In this document: one piece after another, positions 1-10,002 of the stretch
Numbering within the stretch: position 1 is the first letter of the stretch
How the letters are laid out: each line of letters opens with the position of its first letter
NCBI GenBank assembly: GCA_018267285.1
Contig: JAFDYU010000014.1
Location: forward strand, 206,258 to 270,257
DNA: 64,000 nucleotides
Source of the DNA: Bacteroidota bacterium
GTDB lineage: Bacteria > Bacteroidota > Bacteroidia > Cytophagales > Cyclobacteriaceae
Direction of reading: 5' to 3'
Translations under genes and position numbers: made by a program
Notes under the pieces: model-generated
Seen by the model: the letters and a program-made list of their open reading frames with translations, nothing else
Databases searched by the model: none
What the model was told of the DNA's origin: nothing

Positions 1-830
1 TGCACATGCTTAAAAATCTTAAGGTAGGAGTGGTCGGATGTTCAGGCACTGGAAGTCCGACTATTGAACAATTGGCAAGGCTTGGAGTAGGACATTTGGT
101 ATTAGTTGATCCCGATCACATTGAAGAAAAAAACCTTAATCGAATTTTAAACTCGAAAATGACCGATGCTTTGGCAAAGGAAAAAAAGGTTGATGTTATT
201 AAGGGGGCGATAGATAGAATGGGTTTAAAAACCAATGCTCTTTCAATTTCAAAAAACTTATATGATGACATTGATGCAATAAAAGAGATCGCCTCCTGCG
301 ATATTGTTTTTGGCTGTGTTGACAGCGTTGATGGAAGGCATCTTCTTAATTTAATAAGCTCTTTTTATCTAATTCCGTATTTTGATTTAGGTGTGAAGTT
401 ACTTTCAGATGGCCGAGGGGGCATTGATAAAATAGTTGGATCTGTGCATTACATCAAGCCAGGGGGCGGCTCGCTTATGTCAAGAGGGGTGTATTCAAGT
501 GAAGATTTACGAGCGGCAAGTATTTTTCGTGCGCAAAGGGATAATTATAATTCGTTAAAAGAATCAGGATATATAGTTGACGTAAACGTTGATAGTCCTG
601 CGGTTATCAGTATAAATATGTCTGTTTCAGCATTTGGAGTTAACGAATTTTTAGCAAGGCTTCATCCATTTCGATCAGAATTAAATAAAGAATTTGACAT
701 TACGCGATTAAGCATATCTGACGGTTATACAATGCACGAATCAGATGAAACAGTAGATCCTTTTTTTGAAAAATATGTTGGGCGAGGCGATATGAACCCA
801 TTCTTAAACTTACCTGAGTTAAAACCATGA
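1..830 (+). CDS. ThiF-family E1-like adenylyltransferase, 5' end outside the window
   Basis: This encodes an E1/ThiF/MoeB-type enzyme that would adenylate the C-terminus of a ubiquitin-like protein. Counting from the ATG at 6, the glycine-rich nucleotide loop is at residues 11-16 (GCSGTG). VDPD at 34-37 and NLNR at 43-46 supply the acidic residues and the arginine typical of the family, and VDSVDGR follows at 106-112. The frame is open to base 1, and proteins of this type paired with DUF6527 usually have an N-terminal region before the ThiF domain, so I read it as partial. It overlaps the next gene by 4 bases (ATGA), which indicates translational coupling. Cognate modifier and E2 genes are probably just beyond the left edge. 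Confidence 0.8.
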   Translation, partial: HMLKNLKVGVVGCSGTGSPTIEQLARLGVGHLVLVDPDHIEEKNLNRILNSKMTDALAKEKKVDVIKGAIDRMGLKTNALSISKNLYDDIDAIKEIASCDIVFGCVDSVDGRHLLNLISSFYLIPYFDLGVKLLSDGRGGIDKIVGSVHYIKPGGGSLMSRGVYSSEDLRAASIFRAQRDNYNSLKESGYIVDVNVDSPAVISINMSVSAFGVNEFLARLHPFRSELNKEFDITRLSISDGYTMHESDETVDPFFEKYVGRGDMNPFLNLPELKP

Positions 831-1141
831 AGTTCAATTTTTCGTTCCGTAAAAAAGAAAAAACAAATTACACACTCATTAGCATAGAGGACTTTCCTGA
901 GGCAATTGAAGGGGGGAAACTCTACTTAATAGGAAGTCAAAATAAAAAATGGCTGATCGCTATGTTATGCCCATGTGGCTGCGATGCAGTAATACAGTTA
1001 AATCTTTTGAAAGAAGCAAAACCTCAGTGGAAAACACGTATTAACAAAAAAGGACACATTACTGTACTTCCTTCAATTCGAAGGATCATTGGATGCCAGA
1101 GCCATTTTCATATTATTAAGAGCTCCGTCCAATGGCATTAA
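827..1141 (+). CDS. DUF6527-like small zinc-binding protein, partner of the ThiF protein
   Basis: A 104-residue protein with a CPCGC cluster (Cys48, Cys50, Cys52) and a second set, GCQSHF (Cys90, His93), which together look like a zinc-ribbon or treble-clef site. The stretch LPSIRRIIGCQSHF and the final VQW match my memory of the DUF6527 family, which is found next to ThiF-type E1 genes in bacterial ubiquitin-like loci. Its start codon overlaps the ThiF stop (ATGA). A role as an adaptor or E3-like factor is inference only. The gene is convergent with the next one, with a 4-base overlap at the stops. Confidence 0.7.
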   Translation: MKFNFSFRKKEKTNYTLISIEDFPEAIEGGKLYLIGSQNKKWLIAMLCPCGCDAVIQLNLLKEAKPQWKTRINKKGHITVLPSIRRIIGCQSHFHIIKSSVQWH

Positions 1142-1719
1142 TCAATCATAGATTTAAGTATGTCAATATCTGAATCACCATCAGACTTAGAGATCTGAGG
1201 GCGTACTTGGCAGATGTATTTTCGGTTGGTATTTAGATAGTTGGAGCTCTTATCCATTTTAAAAAATCTTGCTTGAATTATTCGCGAGCCGACAAGTAGT
1301 TTAACTGGAGTATTACCTGTATTTATGAGTTCAATAGACAAGCAGCCACAATACCCCGGCTGAATAACTGTTGATAGACTGAATCCTAAACGACTGAAGG
1401 AGCTACGTGTACTTAAAGCAATAAATATGTTCTTTGGAAGTTTGATGTACTCTAGCGTAGAACAGAGGACAGTTTGATGAGGATGGAACACGAAAGATTC
1501 TCCAACTAAACGTCTTGATTCATCATAAAAACTACTGATTGTGCGATCTCTGCCAGTGGCATCAATGTTCACCTCGCGCCCCAGAAATGAAAGCAAAAAG
1601 TCTGTACCCAGCCGTAAATCCAAACTCATCTCACCGAGTTGTGAATCCTCCAAAAGAGGGCGTATTACAAGCTGACCACTTTTTATGAGCTTACTTATTT
1701 CTTTTTTTGTTAGGTACAT
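1138..1719 (-). CDS. dCTP deaminase-like protein
   Basis: A 193-residue protein of the dCTP deaminase/dUTPase fold, which normally deaminates dCTP to dUTP. Early MSLDLRLGTD matches the strand-rich N-terminus. RSSFSRLGF followed by QPGYCGCLSIELINTG matches the signature region, with the conserved serine/arginine and the catalytic glutamate in IEL. Length is typical of Dcd. It is the last gene of a three-gene minus-strand run and overlaps the peptidase gene upstream by 29 bases. Its place in a mobile island beside ubiquitin-like conjugation genes suggests phage defence by nucleotide depletion rather than housekeeping pyrimidine synthesis. That role is inferred; the family call is good. Confidence 0.8.
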   Translation of the reverse strand: MYLTKKEISKLIKSGQLVIRPLLEDSQLGEMSLDLRLGTDFLLSFLGREVNIDATGRDRTISSFYDESRRLVGESFVFHPHQTVLCSTLEYIKLPKNIFIALSTRSSFSRLGFSLSTVIQPGYCGCLSIELINTGNTPVKLLVGSRIIQARFFKMDKSSNYLNTNRKYICQVRPQISKSDGDSDIDILKSMID

Positions 1720-2785
1720 TTTTCTTTTTCCATTCTTTAAGAAGAAAATAATTACTTATTGATTTTTCAATCAAGTTATTGAGGATTGTATTCAACTGAC
1801 TTGGATTACTGAACTTCTTACGCAATACGCTGTTCTTGTTTAACCAAATGCTCCATCCCTGAATGAAGAGAGAATGAAGTTCAGAATCATTTTTAATGTT
1901 CGGGGGTATTAAATTATTAAAATCTTTAAGGGGGATTTTCTTGTACCGAATTTTCAGATCTTGGTCGGTGATTATTTTTGTTGCATTCATAAGTAAATCC
2001 AGATTTTCGGATTTTTTTCCTGCAACGAAATCTTTCACAAAATTTATTCTATTCTCAGTTGATGGATGACTATCGCTGGAAGGGGCCTTGTAGGCTATAT
2101 AATTTAAATAATGATTAGCGGAAAGTCCGATGTACTGTGCAGCAAAGACATCAGCAAAATGCTCCCCTAAATACATTTCCAGTTTTTTCTTTTCAATGTC
2201 AGGTAGCCCGCTGAATTGTGGCTCGCGTTGAACAATCCTTTGGGTAATTTTATAATACTGCTTATCAATAAAGTGACCGATTTCATGATACAAGACTACA
2301 TTTCCGAGGTAATCATGAACTAAGTATTTGGGAATATTTAACTGAATAAGACTTTTGTTGAAAACGATGCCGTATCGCGCAAAGACTTGAGTAGCAAAGT
2401 AGTCGTTAATATTTTTTAGGGAAAACTGTAGGCTATACGAATCCATTTTATTGGAAAGAGATGTAACGATGCTATGATCCTCGTAGTCGCTTATCCAGTC
2501 TTTTAATACAACATTGAGGCAGTTGATAATTTCATACGGCACAAGATTAATCGTACTATTATCTAAGAACTCTACCCAATTGAATACGACTTTTAGTATA
2601 AAGCGATGAGCTTCAATGTCATCTTTAGTAAACCTTTTCTGGCTCTTGAGTTTTATTTGATCAACAAGATCGAGAATCTGATCGTGAAATTCTTTTTTTA
2701 CCTTATCTGAATATTTATTCGACCTGGTCTTCAGCAAGGCTCGTTCTAGTTGAGCAAATCTTAACTCAAAGGTCTGGAGATTCAT
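1691..2785 (-). CDS. HExxH zinc metallopeptidase-like protein of unknown family
   Basis: A 364-residue protein with HEIGH at residues 167-171 and GEHFAD ending at 212. This is the arrangement of a gluzincin-type zinc protease: two histidines, a catalytic glutamate, and a downstream glutamate near Ala-Asp. No signal peptide or clear membrane segment is visible, so it is probably cytoplasmic. The N- and C-terminal thirds are helical and I do not recognise them. It sits between a small unknown gene (8-base gap) and the dCTP-deaminase-like gene (29-base overlap), so the three are probably co-transcribed. A sensor, activator or effector protease in a defence module is plausible but not shown. Confidence 0.65.
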   Translation of the reverse strand: MNLQTFELRFAQLERALLKTRSNKYSDKVKKEFHDQILDLVDQIKLKSQKRFTKDDIEAHRFILKVVFNWVEFLDNSTINLVPYEIINCLNVVLKDWISDYEDHSIVTSLSNKMDSYSLQFSLKNINDYFATQVFARYGIVFNKSLIQLNIPKYLVHDYLGNVVLYHEIGHFIDKQYYKITQRIVQREPQFSGLPDIEKKKLEMYLGEHFADVFAAQYIGLSANHYLNYIAYKAPSSDSHPSTENRINFVKDFVAGKKSENLDLLMNATKIITDQDLKIRYKKIPLKDFNNLIPPNIKNDSELHSLFIQGWSIWLNKNSVLRKKFSNPSQLNTILNNLIEKSISNYFLLKEWKKKNVPNKKRNK

Positions 2786-2793
2786 TAAGGATT

Positions 2794-3117
2794 TTAGACT
2801 ACATGAAAAGTGCCCCGCTTAGTGATGAGTGTGGCTAAAAAATCACGAACAGTTTTGAAGACGTTGTCGCTTATGTTTTCAGGATCCACTTGATCAGCAA
2901 AATACGGTTTGTTATCCTTCGCGATTAGATACACAAGGTTATAGATGGATTGATCAATCTTGTAGAGATCGATTTCATTTTTTGCTAATTTATGAGCGGT
3001 AATGATGATGGATTCCGATATCTTTTTGTAGTCCTCTTTGCCGTATTTAAGATACTGATCCAGCATCAATGAAAACAACTCTAATTCACTATTCTCTATT
3101 GATTTCGCATTATACAT
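2794..3117 (-). CDS. Hypothetical protein, first gene of the peptidase/dCTP-deaminase run
   Basis: A 107-residue protein, almost entirely helical by composition, with charged helices and no cysteine motif. I do not recognise the family. It is the first gene of a compact minus-strand set of three (this gene, the HExxH peptidase, the Dcd-like gene), separated from the peptidase by only 8 bases. The consistent spacing supports a real gene. A regulatory or antitoxin-like role for the downstream pair is possible but unsupported. Confidence 0.6.
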   Translation of the reverse strand: MYNAKSIENSELELFSLMLDQYLKYGKEDYKKISESIIITAHKLAKNEIDLYKIDQSIYNLVYLIAKDNKPYFADQVDPENISDNVFKTVRDFLATLITKRGTFHVV

Positions 3118-3661
3118 GGAATGTATAGTTAGTTATAACAACGTTGAGAGGACTAATTAGGTGCAAATATGGTATTGAAAATACCAGGAATCAAGGATAT
3201 TTCCTATGATTATAGTATCAAATTGGTTACCGCCACTCAACAATATGTGATAGGACACCCAAAGACCCCTGCTGAATTACAGCCGCGTTTCCCATTGTGA
3301 AACGCTTCCAAGTAATATATGTGCATACGGGAAGAAACCAGGAGACTGGTGAGCCTCCTGATTTAGAGTTAAGTAAACACCCAAGCCCAGTAAGCTTGGG
3401 AGGTACTAAATAATTGACGTTATAATAGTAGCCACCGTTTTCTTATTCTCCAAATTTATCCAGGCTTGCCACACCGAAATCCCGTTAAGTGCGTCTCCTT
3501 TAAATTTTAACGATAAATAATACTACTAAGTTGACTCAAACATCCTTGTAAAGAGATTGGAAACATTCTCAAGGTGCCCTCAAGGGTAAACTGAACCTAG
3601 CGCATAGCGTTGGCCGGTGGTTACTGTCTTTTTTTTTCAACTGATTTAAAAAACAACACTA
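3118..3661. other. Gene-free stretch with three perfect hairpins (candidate structured RNA)
   Basis: No convincing ORF lies between the divergent small gene and the ubiquitin-like operon. Three perfect stems occur in 116 bases: GCGTTTC/GAAACGC (3285-3291 with 3299-3305), CAGGAG/CTCCTG (3339-3344 with 3355-3360) and CCCAAGC/GCTTGGG (3380-3386 with 3394-3400). None is followed by a T run, so they are not ordinary terminators. A T-run at about 3630-3638 precedes the operon without a good stem. The stretch should also hold both divergent promoters, but I cannot place them. Confidence 0.4.
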
Positions 3662-4141
3662 ATGAAAATCATAGTATACTTACCGAATAAGGAGATAAAG
3701 GAAATTTTTCCTAACGGTGCGATCAAAGTTGGCGAGCTTATAAAATTAGTTTCTCCACAAACGGCCAATCTTGCCGATAACTTAGAAGATCAAGAAGTCT
3801 ATTTACTTGACAAGCCAGATGAACTTTCAAAAGATTCAAAAACAGATGACCACAAGGCTTTTGTAATTCATCGATGCAAGAAGGTTCAGGTAACTGTTAT
3901 CTACTCCAATAAATCTTTCACACACGCTTATCCACCGTCAACGTTGATTAAGCACATCAGATTGGAGGCGATAAAGAAGTTTGAAATTGATGGGCCAGCC
4001 GGTGAAAATCTTGAGCTCTTTGAAAATGGCGAAAACCAGAATTCAAAAGTGAATAGAAATTATCCGATAGGATACTATTCAGACTACCCGACTTGTTCAA
4101 TCAAGTTGTACTTAGCTGATCCAAACGCTTTTGCAGGATGA
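3662..4141 (+). CDS. bilA: Ubiquitin-like modifier with two beta-grasp-like halves (BilA-like)
   Basis: A 159-residue protein in two halves. Both begin with the beta-hairpin pattern of the ubiquitin fold: residues 1-10 (MKIIVYLPNK), then 74-83 (KVQVTVIYSN) after a linker rich in Asp and Lys. The second half ends with a hydrophobic strand (SIKLYLA) and a short tail, PNAFAG, suitable for exposure and C-terminal activation. Known: in Bil (ISG15-like) anti-phage systems BilA is a double ubiquitin-like protein encoded first, followed by E2, JAMM protease and E1. Here the same order follows, with a 4-base ATGA overlap to the next gene. The identification rests mostly on that context, because ubiquitin-like sequences diverge quickly. 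Confidence 0.7.
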   Translation: MKIIVYLPNKEIKEIFPNGAIKVGELIKLVSPQTANLADNLEDQEVYLLDKPDELSKDSKTDDHKAFVIHRCKKVQVTVIYSNKSFTHAYPPSTLIKHIRLEAIKKFEIDGPAGENLELFENGENQNSKVNRNYPIGYYSDYPTCSIKLYLADPNAFAG

Positions 4142-4635
4142 AGCCTGATCAATTGCTTTTTGAAGATCATTTAAGATTACCAGAATTTACCCAAGGAGAA
4201 ATTCTTGGATACTGGGGTATAGTAAATGAAAAGGAAGAGAGGGAGGCCATTTGGCCTCTCTCTTTTTTTTGGATATCGGTTCCTCCAAGAGGGACAAAGC
4301 AAATAACAAAGTATTATCTAAGGTTAGAATTAACGAACTACAATGTGCTTGCTCCAGCCGGGTGCTTTTGGGACATTGAAAAAAATGTTCGCTTGGACAA
4401 TTCATTGTGGCCTAGGGTAACAGGTCCGTTTGCGCGGGGCTTTAGGATAGATTGGCAAAATGCGCACGAGCTATACGCACCTTGGGATAAGGGCGGTCTT
4501 CAAGCACACCCTGAGTGGGCAACGACTAGTAGCGCTGTGGCGTGGAAATCAGGGAATTCTAAAATCCACAATTATCTGGAGATCATGTACGAAATATTAA
4601 ACAGTGAAAACTATCATGGAACCAATGCAGGCTAA
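4138..4635 (+). CDS. bilB: Putative E2-like conjugating protein (BilB-like)
   Basis: A 165-residue protein in the E2 position of the operon. The centre, YYLRLELTNYNVLAPAGCFW, resembles the E2 strand followed by the proline-containing YP..PP turn. It contains a single cysteine, Cys76. A conserved-looking HELYAPWDKGG segment follows, then a C-terminal helix (HNYLEIMYEIL), as in E2 folds. If Cys76 is catalytic it sits earlier than in eukaryotic E2s, so the active site is uncertain. It overlaps the modifier gene by 4 bases and the JAMM gene by up to 32. Function is assigned mainly by operon position. Confidence 0.6.
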   Translation: MKPDQLLFEDHLRLPEFTQGEILGYWGIVNEKEEREAIWPLSFFWISVPPRGTKQITKYYLRLELTNYNVLAPAGCFWDIEKNVRLDNSLWPRVTGPFARGFRIDWQNAHELYAPWDKGGLQAHPEWATTSSAVAWKSGNSKIHNYLEIMYEILNSENYHGTNAG

Positions 4636-5092
4636 AATAATATTGAAAAAATCACTTTGGGAGGCATTATACGCTGAGCTAGGCAAAAGAGGAAAAGGCG
4701 AAACCGAAAGCGGTGCATTCTTATTGAGCGCAGAAAATTCAATGGAGATTGTTGAATTCGTATGCTATGATGATCTAGAACCTGGATGTCTCGACTCAGG
4801 AGGAATTCATTTAACAGCCAAGGGCTTTATTAAGCTCTGGGACTATTGCTTTGAGAACAAACTTGAAGTAAGAGCTGACATCCATACTCACCCGGGCAGA
4901 AGCACGAGGCAAAGTTACATTGATAAAGATAACCCGATGATAAAAATTAAAGGGCACATAGGCATTATTGTACCTCACCTTGCTTTACCACCTCAGTGCG
5001 AAATGAATGCACTTGGCATCCATGAATTTATGGGAAACGGTTTTGTTTGGAAGGAGTGGAAATTTGGTGATGGAATAATAAAAGTAATCTGA
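4616..5092 (+). CDS. bilC: JAMM/MPN-type deubiquitinase-like isopeptidase (BilC-like)
   Basis: A zinc isopeptidase expected to process the modifier's C-terminus or remove it from targets. Counting from the GTG at 4604, the JAMM signature is complete: Glu35 in ETESGAFL, His94 and His96 in DIHTHP, and Ser104/Asp107 in QSYID. In-frame starts exist at GTG 4604, ATG 4616 and ATG 4625. I chose 4616 because it shortens the overlap with the E2-like gene and uses ATG. The E1 gene follows after 3 bases. Length is that of a stand-alone JAB domain, with no extra domains. Confidence 0.85.
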   Translation: MEPMQAKIILKKSLWEALYAELGKRGKGETESGAFLLSAENSMEIVEFVCYDDLEPGCLDSGGIHLTAKGFIKLWDYCFENKLEVRADIHTHPGRSTRQSYIDKDNPMIKIKGHIGIIVPHLALPPQCEMNALGIHEFMGNGFVWKEWKFGDGIIKVI

Positions 5093-5095
5093 TCA

Positions 5096-6448
5096 ATGAG
5101 TATACTACAAAAAGAATCAATAAGTCGATTGGCTGTAGCTTTTTTAGAATTGGATCCAAGTCTTGCAGAGCTTGGAGATAAAGCCCTTGATTCCATTAAA
5201 GATCGACTTTCAAGTTACACGGTTGCTATTTTTTGTAATGAAGAGATCGAAAACTCGGCTTCGCAGCAAGCTGCACTGTTAACAGCAATTAACGTAGGTA
5301 AGCGCTGTTATAAAGGCGGAGTTTTTGTGTTTCTAAAAGAAGAAGTTAAGTGTCTTTTGAATTGGCCGATAAGAGCATCATTAAATGAAATTGCTGAAGA
5401 ACTTGGCGCGCGTGTGAATTCAGGTAACGAGAAAAACGTTTATACCGCTGAGATATTAATTGGTTCTGCAAAATTAGATAATGACAAATGGTTATTGCAG
5501 GTCAATGATTGGAATGCAGGGATAATTCCTCCAGGGATTAAACACTCAACACTAACTGGGGCTCAAGATTTTCCTCTGGGTGGTATTTTAGGCGGGGCAC
5601 TATCAATAGGTCTAACCTTCCTCAAAATTGCTGGCTTCGATCATAGCATAGGATCAGAAGCCGTGGGGCTTTCTCTGTGGCGACCTGATCTTAATTGGGA
5701 TGATCCCCAGTCTATCGGACCAAAACCGGAGAGCTTTCCTAACAAGGTATGGATTTTAGGGCTTGGTCACTTAGGTCAAGCATATACATGGGCCCTTGGA
5801 TTACTTCCTTTAAGGAATCCAAAAGATCTTTTCGTTAAAATCCAAGATGATGATCGCATTGAGGAAGGAAATTATGACTCAGGGATGTTAAGTGAAAAGA
5901 TTAATGAAGGTGAGTATAAGACTCGAGTCTGTGCAAGTTGGTTAGAATCGCGAGGAATTTTAACCGCTATTGTGGAAAGAAAATATGATGAAAAATATCA
6001 CAGACAAAACACGGATCCCGAAATATTACTTGTTGGTGTTGATAAACTTGAGGCCCGTAAGTCACTAAAAATTGAAGAGTTCAAATTGGTTTTGGATTGC
6101 GGCTTAGGTGCGGGTTTGAACTTTGACATGATTAGATTTAATATTTTCCCTAATCTTAAAACCAGCCCTAAAAAATTTTGGGAGAATGCAAAAGAAATTG
6201 AGAGTACGCCAGTGCTAAAAAATCTATCGCAAAAATTAATTGGCTGCGGTTACACAGTTGGTATAGCTTCTGCATTCACAGGATGCGTAAGTGCCTGTTT
6301 AATCATTTCAGAAATTCTTCGTTCGTATCATCAAGGAATTAAACTTGATCACCACTACATGTCGATAAGAGAGCTGTCAAGTAGCAATTTGAGTTTAATA
6401 GGTGATTATAGGACTGAAACCTTCTGTGGAAGTACTCCGATGAAGTAA
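5096..6448 (+). CDS. bilD: E1-like ubiquitin-activating enzyme (BilD-like)
   Basis: A 450-residue protein. Residues 1-205 form an unrecognised N-terminal domain. From about 217 comes a ThiF/E1 Rossmann fold with GLGHLG at 222-227, the acidic DDDRIEEGN at 251-259 and VGVDKLEAR at 313-321. Late in the domain LIGCGYTVG (Cys384) aligns by position with the catalytic cysteine and following helix of MoeB-type E1s. Where other E1s read N-x-x-R, this protein reads NYDSG at 259-263, so the usual arginine is missing. It closes the four-gene operon (3 bases after the JAMM gene). Confidence 0.75.
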   Translation: MSILQKESISRLAVAFLELDPSLAELGDKALDSIKDRLSSYTVAIFCNEEIENSASQQAALLTAINVGKRCYKGGVFVFLKEEVKCLLNWPIRASLNEIAEELGARVNSGNEKNVYTAEILIGSAKLDNDKWLLQVNDWNAGIIPPGIKHSTLTGAQDFPLGGILGGALSIGLTFLKIAGFDHSIGSEAVGLSLWRPDLNWDDPQSIGPKPESFPNKVWILGLGHLGQAYTWALGLLPLRNPKDLFVKIQDDDRIEEGNYDSGMLSEKINEGEYKTRVCASWLESRGILTAIVERKYDEKYHRQNTDPEILLVGVDKLEARKSLKIEEFKLVLDCGLGAGLNFDMIRFNIFPNLKTSPKKFWENAKEIESTPVLKNLSQKLIGCGYTVGIASAFTGCVSACLIISEILRSYHQGIKLDHHYMSIRELSSSNLSLIGDYRTETFCGSTPMK

Positions 6449-6548
6449 GGTTTAAGTACTGAATCGAATCCCTTGGAATTAGGACGTCAATTTTCTCGCA
6501 CAAAAATCTATTTGTAATCTTGCATTTGATGACTAACCAGCAGAGGGA

Positions 6549-6713
6549 CTGCGACTGAAATTCAAAATTCATGGCAATCTAAGTGATGAGGACTTGATCA
6601 AAAGATTTATTCCGACTAATCTATCTGAATCAGAATTGCAACTCATTAAAGAAAAGGCTAATACTCTCGATCAATTACTGATCTCTATTGAGCGCTACTT
6701 TAATTCAAACTGA
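6549..6713 (+). CDS. Small ORF without ATG, or a gene remnant
   Basis: An open frame of 54 codons bounded upstream by a TAA at 6534. It encodes a well-formed amphipathic sequence (HGNLSDEDLI, then SESELQLIKEKANTL) that looks like real protein. No ATG, GTG or TTG stands at its beginning, only CTG codons at 6549 and 6555. It is either a minor-start gene or the 3' remnant of a lost gene behind the E1-like gene. No family recognised. Confidence 0.3.
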   Translation: MRLKFKIHGNLSDEDLIKRFIPTNLSESELQLIKEKANTLDQLLISIERYFNSN

Positions 6714-6749
6714 TTTGGTTTGCTAAAAATTGCTTTCGAGCTTCGATGC

Positions 6750-7019
6750 ATGAAACTAGCAGAACTTGAGCAAGGAATTTACAAAGTTAAGGTCAACAAA
6801 AGCACTTCTATAATTAAGCCAAATAAGAATGCACCCAAAGCCAGCGCTCATCTATTGTTTGTGAAAGGATTTGGTGAACAAAAGACATATAGACTAGACA
6901 ATGGTATTGCTCAGCCCAAAAAGTACTTTGTTGCTGATGAACGCGAGTTTGAGGTTGTCAGAAAACTAGGTGATATCCCAGTAAACGTGCAACGAATTTA
7001 TTTAAACTTGGAAAGATGA
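6750..7019 (+). CDS. Hypothetical protein, 89 residues
   Basis: A small basic protein rich in beta-strand-type sequence (GIYKVKVNK, AHLLFVKGFG, RIYLNL) with no cysteine and no signal peptide. The frame can extend to a TTG at 6720, but ATG 6750 is the better start. It lies downstream of the Bil-like operon in the same direction and could belong to it. Its stop overlaps the ATG of a 16-codon ORF (7016-7066). I do not recognise the family. Confidence 0.45.
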   Translation: MKLAELEQGIYKVKVNKSTSIIKPNKNAPKASAHLLFVKGFGEQKTYRLDNGIAQPKKYFVADEREFEVVRKLGDIPVNVQRIYLNLER

Positions 7020-7071
7020 AGAAGGGGATGATTATTTTTTCTCGACAAGTGACGCGTGGGCTCTAAGATCA

Positions 7072-7137
7072 ATGTTTGAAGAGTTCAAGTTTCTGGCAAA
7101 TCCTTTCAACTTTAGACCGCAAAGAAAAAGAAGATGA
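7072..7137 (+). CDS. Very short ORF coupled to a short membrane ORF
   Basis: 21 codons ending in a basic tail (PQRKRR). Its stop overlaps the next ATG as ATGA, which is the only evidence for translation. It could be a coupled leader or a decayed remnant. Confidence 0.2.
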   Translation: MFEEFKFLANPFNFRPQRKRR

Positions 7138-7226
7138 CCTGGCTTGAAATCCTATTCTTTATTGTAGCATGGTTAGCAGGAATGTGGCTTTGTTCCAAAG
7201 CATATGACGTCTTGCGGGAGAAATAA
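7134..7226 (+). CDS. Short single-span membrane peptide ORF
   Basis: 30 codons encoding one hydrophobic helix (WLEILFFIVAWLAGMWL) with a charged C-terminal tail (YDVLREK). Its start overlaps the preceding 21-codon ORF by 4 bases. Short hydrophobic peptides occur in toxin and defence loci, but nothing more can be read here. Confidence 0.3.
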   Translation: MTWLEILFFIVAWLAGMWLCSKAYDVLREK

Positions 7227-7254
7227 TAACTCAAGGATACAGATGAAGTCTTGA

Positions 7255-7854
7255 CTACAATTCATTTTTCTCGCCTGACTTTATTTTCGAAATAATTCTT
7301 TCAGCTCTAGTTTCACTTGTATCGTCCCTAAGATGCTTAATGCCATGGAATCTTAATCCTTCGTAGCCCTTCATATCTTTTAGAACTGCTTCTTTCAAGG
7401 CCACGTGAGACAGAAATTCATTTAATTCTGAATCAACTAATTTTCTTCTATCCTCTTTGCTCTCGAAAACCACCATGAACCCATGTTCTTTCGGTTTCTT
7501 TTTATTATTCAATCTTCTTTGAACATCCATGAGATAAAAAAACTCGCCTTCAGAAAGCTTACACTCAATCAAAAAACATTTTCTTAGGACATCATATTTT
7601 ATCAAAAAACACCAGTCATAGGCTGGGCTATATTGTGCAAACTTGGAATATGGAAAAAATGAATAACCTTGTCCATCATTCAAATCGCAATCCTCTGTCG
7701 TTACCCCTAGTGTATTTAAATTTGCTACTACTTTATCAAAGGCTTCTTCTGTGTTCTGATCCAAGACGTGATCTACTAGTTCAGAATCTTTGCCAATAAC
7801 TCCGGAATTTTTTTTGCCTCCTTCGCCTCGTGTCCTGCGTCCCGAATCCTTCAC
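7255..7854 (-). CDS. C-terminal part of a split TnsE-like protein, nuclease-fold-like
   Basis: 199 residues from a GTG. It has an Asp80 ... Glu97-Cys98-Lys99 arrangement (YDW, 16 residues on FLIECK) reminiscent of a PD-(D/E)xK core, and a FDKVVANLN helix before it. The gene is in the same frame as the upstream 408-residue ORF, separated only by one TAA and five sense codons. The two therefore most likely formed a single protein of about 612 residues. The late AFD-helix, strand and FLIE strand recall the C-terminal domain of Tn7 TnsE as I remember it; this is a weak, memory-based similarity. It may now be inactive or expressed as a separate subunit. Confidence 0.5.
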   Translation of the reverse strand: MKDSGRRTRGEGGKKNSGVIGKDSELVDHVLDQNTEEAFDKVVANLNTLGVTTEDCDLNDGQGYSFFPYSKFAQYSPAYDWCFLIKYDVLRKCFLIECKLSEGEFFYLMDVQRRLNNKKKPKEHGFMVVFESKEDRRKLVDSELNEFLSHVALKEAVLKDMKGYEGLRFHGIKHLRDDTSETRAERIISKIKSGEKNEL

Positions 7855-7869
7855 CAGTTTGTTGATGAT

Positions 7870-9096
7870 TTATCCTGTAGTTTTTTGATCTTCTTTATCA
7901 ACTTTTGAGGCATCGAAACTTGCATTTGGAAAAGGAGGAAACTCGATTTTAATAATCTCTTTTTCATCTTCCCCGTCTGGCTCTCTTTCTCCATCCTCAC
8001 TTACAGGTGGTTTCTTTTTATCTTCTTCCTTTGGATCTTTTGGATCCTTACCGTTTTCATTGGTGTTTTTTCTTTTTTGCCTTTTAGGTTTACGCTTTTC
8101 CAATTCGTGATCAACTTTATCTGCGATACTTCGACCATCATTTATTCTAAGAAAATCCAGGTCATCAAAAGGAAAAGGATGACTGCATGAATGTATTTCA
8201 GTGACTAAAGCAATTCTGGGAGCATCCTTTAAATGGGGAAATCTCTCAAGAAATTTGGACTTCTCTTTAACAGTAATACTTTCATAGTTGACCAATAAGT
8301 TTGTTTGATCATTGAAGGGAAATCCTGATGAAGGATATATACTATATTTTTTACTCTCCAGAAGTGAATCATAAATCTTTTCAGCATTTTTAAACGCTAC
8401 ATCATCAAAGACCATTCTTCCAACAGTTTTTGCGCACTTGTCTTCGATTTTCTTGCTGAGCATTACAAACGGGACTTCTTTATCGTCTCGTTTAACAAAA
8501 GCACTATATTCAGGATAAAAAATTTCCTTTGTGCTGAGTCCACCATTGAAAAGGGCGGAAACTAAGTTTGATGTGAATCCATAATAAAATCGGATGATTT
8601 CATATGTTGGGATCACTACTAATCCAAGCTTCGACTTCTTCGACTTTTCATCAAGGTTGTCTCGATTTTTAAATTCACAAGTCACGTTGTTGAATACCCA
8701 GACCTTAGAACTCAGCTGACCTTGGAGGTTGAAATAATAAGTATCACTAATATTGATAAGGTCTGCCAAGGCACATTCTTTCCCGGACTCAATTGAGATT
8801 TCAAGGTTTACTAATTTGCCAAAGGCAACGTGTCTTTTTACTAGATCCTCACCACTGTAAATGCTCCCAACTCTTAGTGCAGCAAGCCTTCTCACATTTA
8901 TTTTAACCATCACATCTCCTCCTCCTTTAAGGAAGGGATGATTTTTGTCCTTGTTAAAATATTCCTGGTAATTAGTTACCTCTTGAAAAAAAACTTCAAG
9001 TAGTTTTTCTTTATTATTTCCTTCGACCAACTGACCAATATACTTAAGCCTATAGAACTTGTCCCGTTCTAGTGAGGTCAGTTTCAGAAGCGGCAT
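7870..9096 (-). CDS. N-terminal part of a split TnsE-like protein at the element end
   Basis: 408 residues. A middle segment (IPTYEIIRFYYGFTSNLV) resembles the P-x-x-E-x-x-R pattern I recall from the N-terminal half of Tn7 TnsE, the target-choice protein for conjugating plasmids and replicating DNA. The last ~80 residues are a charged low-complexity linker (KPKRQKRK, KDPKDPKEEDKKK) before a stop at 7870-7872. The frame continues open beyond that stop for 205 codons. Its ATG is immediately inside the repeat pair at the element end, so transposase binding there would cover its promoter. Position next to a TGT end supports a transposition-related gene; the TnsE name is tentative. Confidence 0.5.
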   Translation of the reverse strand: MPLLKLTSLERDKFYRLKYIGQLVEGNNKEKLLEVFFQEVTNYQEYFNKDKNHPFLKGGGDVMVKINVRRLAALRVGSIYSGEDLVKRHVAFGKLVNLEISIESGKECALADLINISDTYYFNLQGQLSSKVWVFNNVTCEFKNRDNLDEKSKKSKLGLVVIPTYEIIRFYYGFTSNLVSALFNGGLSTKEIFYPEYSAFVKRDDKEVPFVMLSKKIEDKCAKTVGRMVFDDVAFKNAEKIYDSLLESKKYSIYPSSGFPFNDQTNLLVNYESITVKEKSKFLERFPHLKDAPRIALVTEIHSCSHPFPFDDLDFLRINDGRSIADKVDHELEKRKPKRQKRKNTNENGKDPKDPKEEDKKKPPVSEDGEREPDGEDEKEIIKIEFPPFPNASFDASKVDKEDQKTTG

Positions 9097-9144
9097 AAAT
9101 TCGCATTAGCTTCTGGAAATTCGCGCTTTCTTCTGGAATTGACA
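9097..9144 (-). repeat. Element terminus: TGTC end plus two tandem 20-bp repeats
   Basis: On the plus strand AAATTCGCATTAGCTTCTGG (9097-9116) is followed at once by AAATTCGCGCTTTCTTCTGG (9117-9136), 16 of 20 bases identical. Then comes AATTGACA ending at 9144. Read on the minus strand the end is TGTCAATTCCAGAAG..., which has the TGTC and CAGAAG features of Tn402/Tn5053-type ends as I recall them. The five adjoining chromosomal bases, ACCGC (9145-9149), are the predicted target duplication. The partner end is not in the window. Confidence 0.65.
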
Positions 9145-10002
9145 ACCGCCCACCAAGGCAACATCGGAAATGGTATGGTGCGGAGAACGAAATGGGCGGG
9201 TGGTGATCAGCGTTCCGTCTGCGCCTACTTTGCCCGCCACCGAATGTATCTTGGTTGTTTCGAGTGCTTCGTTCAGGGTGAGCGGTGGCAAAATGGTTGG
9301 GAGCCGCTTAGCCAACATAGTTTTACCCGCACCGGGTGGACCGATTAAAATAGCGTTATGCCCTCCGGCTGCGGCAATTTCAAGTGCGCGTTTAATATTT
9401 TCCTGCCCTTGCACATCTTTAAAATCTGTTTCGTAATTATTGAGTTTGTTCTGAAAGACTTCGCGTGTATCGATTGAGAGGGGTTCAATTTTCTTTTTAC
9501 CCTCTACAAACTCAATCGCCTCGTTCAAATTATCAACGCCAATCACATCCAAGTTATTGACAATAGCTGCCTCGCGTGCATTAGATTTAGGCAAAATAAA
9601 TCCTTTGAATTGTTCCTTTCGAGCTTGAATGGCGATGGGCAGCACTCCTTTGATTGGTCTTAATTCACCATCCAGCGAAAGCTCTCCCATAATCACATAC
9701 TGCTCCAATATTTGCGTGCTGATTTGTGCCGATGCCGAAAGAATACAAAGCGCAATGGGCAAATCGTAAGCCGAGCCTTCTTTCCGGATGTCGGCCGGAG
9801 CCAGATTGACCACTACTTTATTCCGTGGCATGAAGTAATTTAAACTTTTCAATGATGACTCCACGCGATGTTCGCTTTCTTTCACGGCTGTATCGGGCAA
9901 ACCGCTCATGTGGAAATTTTTTCCTTGCGTAACATTCACCTCTACGGTAATGGTGCGGGCATCAACACCGTGCACAGCACTGCCAAAAGTTTTTGAAACC
10001 AT
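9106..10002 (-). pseudogene. comM: comM/yifB (Mg-chelatase-like AAA ATPase), truncated by the element
   Basis: The first 286 codons (10002 to 9145) are a clear ComM/YifB protein: the N-terminal ChlI domain (residues 1-165, with LPDTAVKESEHRV), then the AAA domain with GPPGAGKT at 221-228 and RPFRSPHHTISDVALVGG. Known members are about 510 residues, and ComM acts as a helicase in natural transformation. After the two glycines the frame enters the mobile element, adds 12 foreign codons and stops. Walker B, sensor and C-terminal regions are missing, so the product should be inactive. The rest of comM should lie beyond the element's other end. Confidence 0.88.

Follow-up and report, generated by a model that had tools for sequence, protein, structure and literature searches.

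A Bil operon in a Tn7-like transposon encodes an E2-like protein with tryptophan in place of the conserved cysteine

In a 64,000-nucleotide stretch from a Bacteroidota bacterium of the Cyclobacteriaceae (assembly GCA_018267285.1, contig JAFDYU010000014.1, positions 206,258 to 270,257; hereafter the window), a four-gene operon of the ubiquitin-like Bil type was found in which the ubiquitin-conjugating-enzyme-like (E2-like) protein, BilB, has tryptophan at the position where most relatives have cysteine. The window is the final 64 kb of a 270-kb contig, in a 3.33-Mb genome that is 97.7% complete. As read from the sequence, the ubiquitin-like relay lacks its presumed E2 cysteine here, and the PADLOC models still match the genes as Bil. 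We favour, with a probability of roughly 0.45, the reading that the operon is a Bil variant in which the cysteine-less, aromatic-site BilB would act as a non-catalytic, tail-binding pseudo-E2, with the modifier BilA being passed on from the activating enzyme (E1). The genes and key codons are as follows.

3662..4141, forward strand: bilA, 159 amino acids, ending in NAFAG (PADLOC BilA, 2.6e-19).
4138..4635, forward strand: bilB, a 165-amino-acid E2-like protein (PADLOC BilB, 1.8e-38; Pfam PF24702, DUF7665, 1.2e-26).
4483..4485, forward strand: TGG codon of BilB Trp116, at the conserved cysteine position.
4604..5092, forward strand: bilC, a JAMM/JAB protease with a GTG start (PADLOC BilC, 3.9e-49).
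5096..6448, forward strand: bilD, a 450-amino-acid E1-like protein with the adenylation motif GLGHLGQAY (PADLOC BilD, 7.4e-106).
6245..6247, forward strand: TGC codon of BilD Cys384, the sole invariant cysteine of BilD and its presumed thioester cysteine.

The initial annotation had described these as four coupled reading frames in the modifier–E2–JAMM–E1 order of Bil, and both the frames and the identity were borne out. bilA and bilB overlap by 4 bases, bilB and bilC by 32 bases from the GTG at 4604 or by 20 from the in-frame ATG at 4616, and bilC is separated from bilD by 3 bases; in the profile search, each gene matched its own PADLOC Bil model, Pfam knowing BilB only as DUF7665. The five relatives compared first have the same gene order as the window. 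The four PADLOC matches together with this shared order exclude a chance origin of the four-gene match. The proposal that the modifier consists of two fused ubiquitin-like halves was also upheld, as a 60-member BilA profile matched di-ubiquitin chains in the PDB through both halves (3u30, E = 3.5e-8), and a C-terminal glycine is present in 78/78 aligned BilA proteins. Likewise, the BilC JAMM site, previously reported as complete, comprises Glu35, His94, His96, Ser104, and Asp107, all identical in 81/81 aligned BilC proteins. The claim of a complete conjugation operon was not supported: the four Bil genes and an intact JAMM site are there, but BilB is without the cysteine found in 73 of 90 BilB proteins.

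The BilB set was assembled from several sources. A genome search for BilD relatives, run at two levels, gave hits in 2 of 395 genomes at the phylum level and in 5 of 295 at the family level; both counts include the genome of the window. A further 80 loci were the best of 151 from genome contigs, one came from viral contigs, and 12 plasmid loci were picked by hand from searches, each of which returned 35 plasmid records. The BilD search of phage records gave no match. After 5 duplicates and 4 loci without a BilB found had been dropped, 90 readable BilB proteins remained, including that of the window. Because the loci were either ranked by similarity or hand-picked, the residue counts below are not frequencies. 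Individual fetched loci are labelled with L-numbers, L015 being that of Dawidia soli.

In these 90 loci, the residue within the BilB motif LYxP-C-DR is Cys in 73, Trp in 7, Tyr in 4, Phe in 2, and Ala, Ile, Leu, and Ser in one each. An aromatic residue (Trp, Phe, or Tyr) thus occurs in 13 loci, which belong to four phyla (Bacteroidota, Actinomycetota, Chloroflexota, and Pseudomonadota), and grouping at 90% identity gives 76 clusters, of which 15 are non-cysteine. Four extra Bacteroidota BilB proteins from later searches (L121, L122, L124, and L125), possibly near-copies of earlier loci, all have Cys. The nearest relative of the window, that of D. soli (BilB 55% identical), also carries Trp in this column, so Trp116 is not a sequencing error. 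The single Ser, in L063, may be a chance variant, because the other two BilB proteins of its cluster have Cys. With the conserved cysteine missing, an ordinary E1-to-E2 thioester relay at column 116 is not possible in the window. A BilB with a catalytic cysteine, as expected of a Bil system and of an E2, was therefore not found there, provided that the conserved column is the active site. For the comparisons that follow, the 13 aromatic loci (window included) and the one Ala locus form a W/F/Y/A type of 14 loci, which was set against the 73 loci of the Cys type.

The other key residues of the system are largely kept in both types. Near the site, Tyr113, Trp127, and Trp136 are kept in 14/14 W/F/Y/A-type loci, His124 in 13/14, and Asp117 in 12/14, and all five are kept in 73/73 Cys-type loci. 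BilD Cys384 was found in 82/82 aligned proteins and, in a further comparison, in 87/87 loci (14/14 of the W/F/Y/A type and 73/73 of the Cys type); its role as the thioester cysteine is presumed from this invariance. Moreover, comparison of the window with L015 showed that the frames have stayed open at saturated synonymous divergence, with proteins 55–66% identical. The retention of the neighbouring residues, of Cys384, and of the JAMM site suggested that the aromatic BilB type is not a product of decay, and the last two speak for the continued formation of a thioester and an isopeptide bond. In addition, the BilB proteins of L033 and L046 contain no cysteine at all across the whole stop-to-stop frame, which argues that at least these two would be unable to use an E2 thioester.

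The change in BilB is accompanied by changes in its partners. Two residues before the terminal Gly159, the window BilA has Phe157 (codon 4130–4132). At this position, Cys-type loci have Val in 46, Ile in 25, and Phe in 1 (Val or Ile in 71/72, one locus being without a readable BilA), whereas the 13 aromatic-type loci have Phe in 6, Pro in 4, Thr in 2, and Tyr in 1, and Val or Ile in 0/13. Pro is found in the Ala-type locus, and the loci with Ile, Leu, or Ser in BilB have retained Val or Ile. Furthermore, BilD residue 334, located just before a Gly-rich stretch, is Glu in 69/73 Cys-type loci and Asp in 14/14 W/F/Y/A-type loci.

The history of the aromatic type was evaluated on protein trees. 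The BilD tree places the W/F/Y/A types in five pure groups and calls for no fewer than three changes, of which two are forced by well-supported branches. A single clade was rejected on this tree, with approximately unbiased (AU) test p values of 0.0025 for the aromatic loci only, without plasmid loci, and 0.01 for all 14 W/F/Y/A loci with plasmid loci. It was not rejected on the BilB (p = 0.76) or BilC (p = 0.55) trees, in both of which the held-together tree was slightly likelier; long branches were flagged in these single-origin tests. The trees together would allow one to several origins of the aromatic type. Given this range and the small number of independent phylogenetic pairs (2–3), the BilA/BilB linkage stands out clearly as a pattern without amounting to phylogenetic proof.

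Based on these data, we speculated that the tag is handed over without an E2 thioester. BilD would adenylate BilA, whose last encoded residue is already Gly, and would then load it on Cys384. BilB would have ceased to receive the tag through a thioester bond; its one-time active site, which has become aromatic, would hold the altered BilA tail, the target, or both, and the E1~BilA thioester would be discharged directly onto the target. BilC would trim or remove BilA. Transfer from the E1 with BilB as a clamp is favoured because Cys384 and the JAMM site are kept and because the BilB proteins of L033 and L046 are free of cysteine. By analogy with the Bil systems studied so far, the role of the operon is likely anti-phage defence. 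We put forward more tentatively the general form of the proposal, namely that a Bil variety spread across the four phyla tags without an E2 thioester, with an aromatic residue replacing the cysteine, BilB serving as a tail-and-target clamp, transfer occurring from the E1, and the BilA tail, E1, and BilB having changed together.

Several observations weigh against the favoured reading. Nowhere in the accessible literature is a Bil system shown to transfer its modifier directly from the E1. The BilA tail link is not strict, because the Cupriavidus locus L102, the sole exception, combines a Cys-type BilB with Phe in the tail; the group-specific BilD residues were picked after a scan of all columns; and the 2–3 independent pairs are too few for a test. 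Asp117 is replaced by Gln or Asn in L097 and L098. Thiols also remain, as the window BilB has one cysteine, Cys76, and BilD Cys71 is present in 8/14 W/F/Y/A-type loci, the window included, compared with 6/73 of the Cys type, so another thiol may matter. Finally, kinship of BilB to known E2s was not recovered: PDB searches with BilB alone and with 6-member and 61-member profiles gave nothing useful and no E2 link, and hhalign comparison with six Prok-E2_B domains was likewise negative, whether or not one UQ_con domain was added. The E2 nature of BilB and the matching of its cysteine column to the E2 active site would thus be drawn from conservation, published naming, and a parallel in landmarks.

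The alternative that no covalent conjugation takes place, with BilA, activated or not, being bound by BilB and acting as a non-covalent partner or signal, was considered unlikely. It would suit a BilB that has lost the relay cysteine but kept its scaffold, together with the altered BilA tails, and the transposon that carries the operon (described below) holds a second operon resembling a type whose E2-like protein was called likely inactive in the accessible part of PMC1779556. On the other hand, none of the loci read has lost Cys384 or the JAMM site, which would be hard to explain without a thioester and an isopeptide bond.

We judged it improbable that BilB is still a catalytic E2 through another residue, such as Cys76 in the window, other side chains elsewhere, or a BilD thiol such as Cys71. 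Cys76 is common to L015, L081, and L082, the excess of BilD Cys71 noted above would fit, and the accessible part of PMC1779556 documents prokaryotic E2-like families in which the active-site residues are shifted. However, while L033 and L046 have no BilB cysteine, L091, L065, and L088 carry theirs elsewhere, and cysteine stays below half of the W/F/Y/A-type loci at every BilB column. The Cys76 column is also Cys in 14 Cys-type loci, mostly from Bacteroidota, and Cys76 is therefore not a compensation. BilD Cys71, for its part, is missing from 6/14 W/F/Y/A-type loci.

More doubtful still is the reading that the conserved cysteine of BilB does not serve as the E2 thioester site, in which case its loss would have no catalytic meaning. 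BilB could not be aligned residue by residue with a known E2; Pfam searches with 61 BilB proteins gave DUF7665 in all 61, and the next family, CUB_A2MG, touched 11, with a best E of 0.001. A second column, at position 65 of the window BilB, is Cys in 49/73 Cys-type and 2/14 W/F/Y/A-type loci. Nevertheless, the column-116 cysteine is the most conserved of BilB and precedes a W-x-P, helix-like, LLNSxDY stretch that, in our reading, resembles the C...W-S-P, helix, LLxDP arrangement of E2s such as 2f4z. Published work, the accessible part of PMC11354881 included, names BilB as an E2.

An ordinary Bil system whose cysteine-containing E2 is supplied from elsewhere in the cell, for example by the second operon, appears very improbable. 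The Prok-E2_E gene of that operon lies on the same transposon, about 4 kb away, and is the genome's only PF14462 match. Its protein has a single cysteine (GYNC), which by eye is unmatched in the other four family members read. The genome search found no second BilB-family gene (PF24702) and no PF14461 or PF00179 match, other E2 families not having been searched. Moreover, queries with E2_E, JAB-ThiF, and DUF6527 found no second-operon gene near other Bil loci, in flanks of differing length; Bub and Bil as a common pair was rejected on the same result. A decaying, non-functional operon, to which the loss of a conserved residue by a single base change from a Cys codon would point, can hardly be reconciled with an aromatic residue at this position in 13 loci from four phyla, four open frames in the window, and the other key residues kept.

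The favoured reading of a clamp-like BilB concerns an operon that is cargo of a Tn7-like transposon in the host gene yifB/comM, in agreement with the initial placement in a transposon. Genes for TnsA, TnsB, a TniB/TnsC ATPase, and TniQ lie within the element upstream of the window, the ends read TGT...ACA, and a 5-bp target-site duplication, ACCGC, flanks it; once the element is removed, the yifB/comM reading frame is continuous across the empty site. Tn7-like insertion in comM/yifB with the same duplication is familiar from other bacteria. The left end has one 22-bp repeat similar to the two at the right end, found with a search pattern written from these same ends. The features of the element and of its second operon are as follows.

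Contig 198344-215401 (17,058 bp; window share 1..9144): Tn7-like transposon, starting 7.9 kb before the window.
9145..9149 of the window: duplication ACCGC, the other copy lying at contig 198339-198343.
9097..9138, reverse strand: two 22-bp repeats resembling TnsB sites, at the right end of the element.
1..830, forward strand: 3' part of a JAB-ThiF fusion gene (PF00899, 2.4e-25; PF14464, 1.1e-6); the whole gene encodes 462 amino acids and begins before the window.
827..1141, forward strand: DUF6527 protein of the second operon (PF20137, 1.1e-17).

The second ubiquitin-like operon of the transposon comprises Multi_ubiq, Prok-E2_E, JAB-ThiF, and DUF6527 genes (window 1-1141 and L003 17578-19687), of which the Multi_ubiq and Prok-E2_E genes (PF14452 and PF14462) lie upstream of the window; by this gene set it resembles Bub operons. 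A sigma-70-region-2 protein (L003 16767-17456) adjoins it and may control it. Other cargo includes a CoiA-like protein, a dCTP deaminase, and a putative HExxH peptidase. Between both ubiquitin-like operons (window 1138-3117, reverse strand), the dCTP deaminase gene overlaps that of the 364-amino-acid HExxH peptidase, which has the motif only and no family match, and a 107-amino-acid protein is also encoded; this group is possibly a further defence or control unit. At the right end (window 7255-9096, reverse strand), reading frames of 199 and 408 amino acids gave no Pfam, NCBIfam, or PADLOC match, and the region may hold a gene for target choice.

Around the other loci, natural fusions were seen in both BilB kinds: BilC–BilD in D. 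soli (L015 9521-11422) and BilA–BilB in the Bacteroidota loci L048, L062, and L092. On a Burkholderia cepacia plasmid, an 8.2-kb stretch (L099) holds a BilD-like E1 gene (3495-4784) and part of an IS66 transposase; BilA, BilB, and BilC were not recognised in it. An ImmA/IrrE-type peptidase was found within 3.5 kb upstream of bilA in 52/58 Cys-type and 8/8 scored W/F/Y/A-type loci (loci L015–L096), with our own model; this had been seeded from eight loci of the aromatic type, and the 8 scored loci include six of those. In many loci the domain is part of a UvrD-helicase-like protein of about 1,140 amino acids, one example of which matched Pfam M78 at E = 2.3e-4, just under the cut-off. A special tie of the peptidase to the aromatic type was rejected, as it is also upstream in most Cys-type loci, and it was not recognised in the two window reading frames tested.

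The Bil system is laid out like ISG15 tagging, and a recurrent variety that drops the E2 cysteine while keeping the E1 cysteine and the deconjugating enzyme raises the question of whether the E2 step is dispensable in a ubiquitin-like relay. Cys-type and aromatic-type BilB proteins, each with its own BilA tail, form natural pairs for the study of E2-step bypass and of a non-catalytic E2-scaffold role. They also carry a warning, since profile models match cysteine-less BilB genes as ordinary Bil genes. No report of a cysteine-less BilB was found in the literature searched, which was only partly aimed at it, and earlier notice is possible.

With the Bil anti-phage system BilABCD (PADLOC PDLC03844-03847), the window operon has in common the four families, their order, the two-domain BilA, the JAMM site, and the E1 cysteine. 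It differs in a BilB without the conserved cysteine, in BilD Asp334 where Glu is usual, and in a BilA tail of AFAG where Cys-type tails are mostly xVxG or xIxG. The solved BilABCD complex (PDB 8tyx/8tyy, with the E33A form of the deubiquitinase BilC) has the same named parts but almost no sequence similarity: the window BilC gave a weak match (E = 0.32), and BilA, BilB, and BilD were unmatched in PDB searches up to E = 1. A CEHH motif is attributed to the E2 of a BilABCD system in the accessible part of a review (PMC11354881), and we infer that this system is the one of 8tyx/8tyy. According to the accessible part of PMC12948488, Bil tags the phage tail fibre. As far as the accessible part of PMC13373217 goes, Bub operons are not shown to protect against phage, and CapH+CapP, CapW, or CapK+CapS can adjoin such operons. 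In the accessible part of Iyer et al., 2006 (PMC1779556), an operon is described in which the E2-like domain has no such cysteine and was judged likely inactive, and in which a neighbouring protein bears a C-x3-C signature; we take the second operon of the transposon to resemble it (row 6e, by our reading). Cysteine-less operons of this Bub-like kind also combine an E2-like protein without a catalytic cysteine with an E1 and a JAB protein, but the families are Prok-E2_E and Multi_ubiq there and DUF7665 and BilA here. Modifiers of the Urm1/SAMP type are attached independently of an E2, by direct transfer from E1s that are of a different kind and are not known to work with a BilB-like partner. 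Such tagging would share its direct E1 transfer with the mechanism proposed for the window operon.

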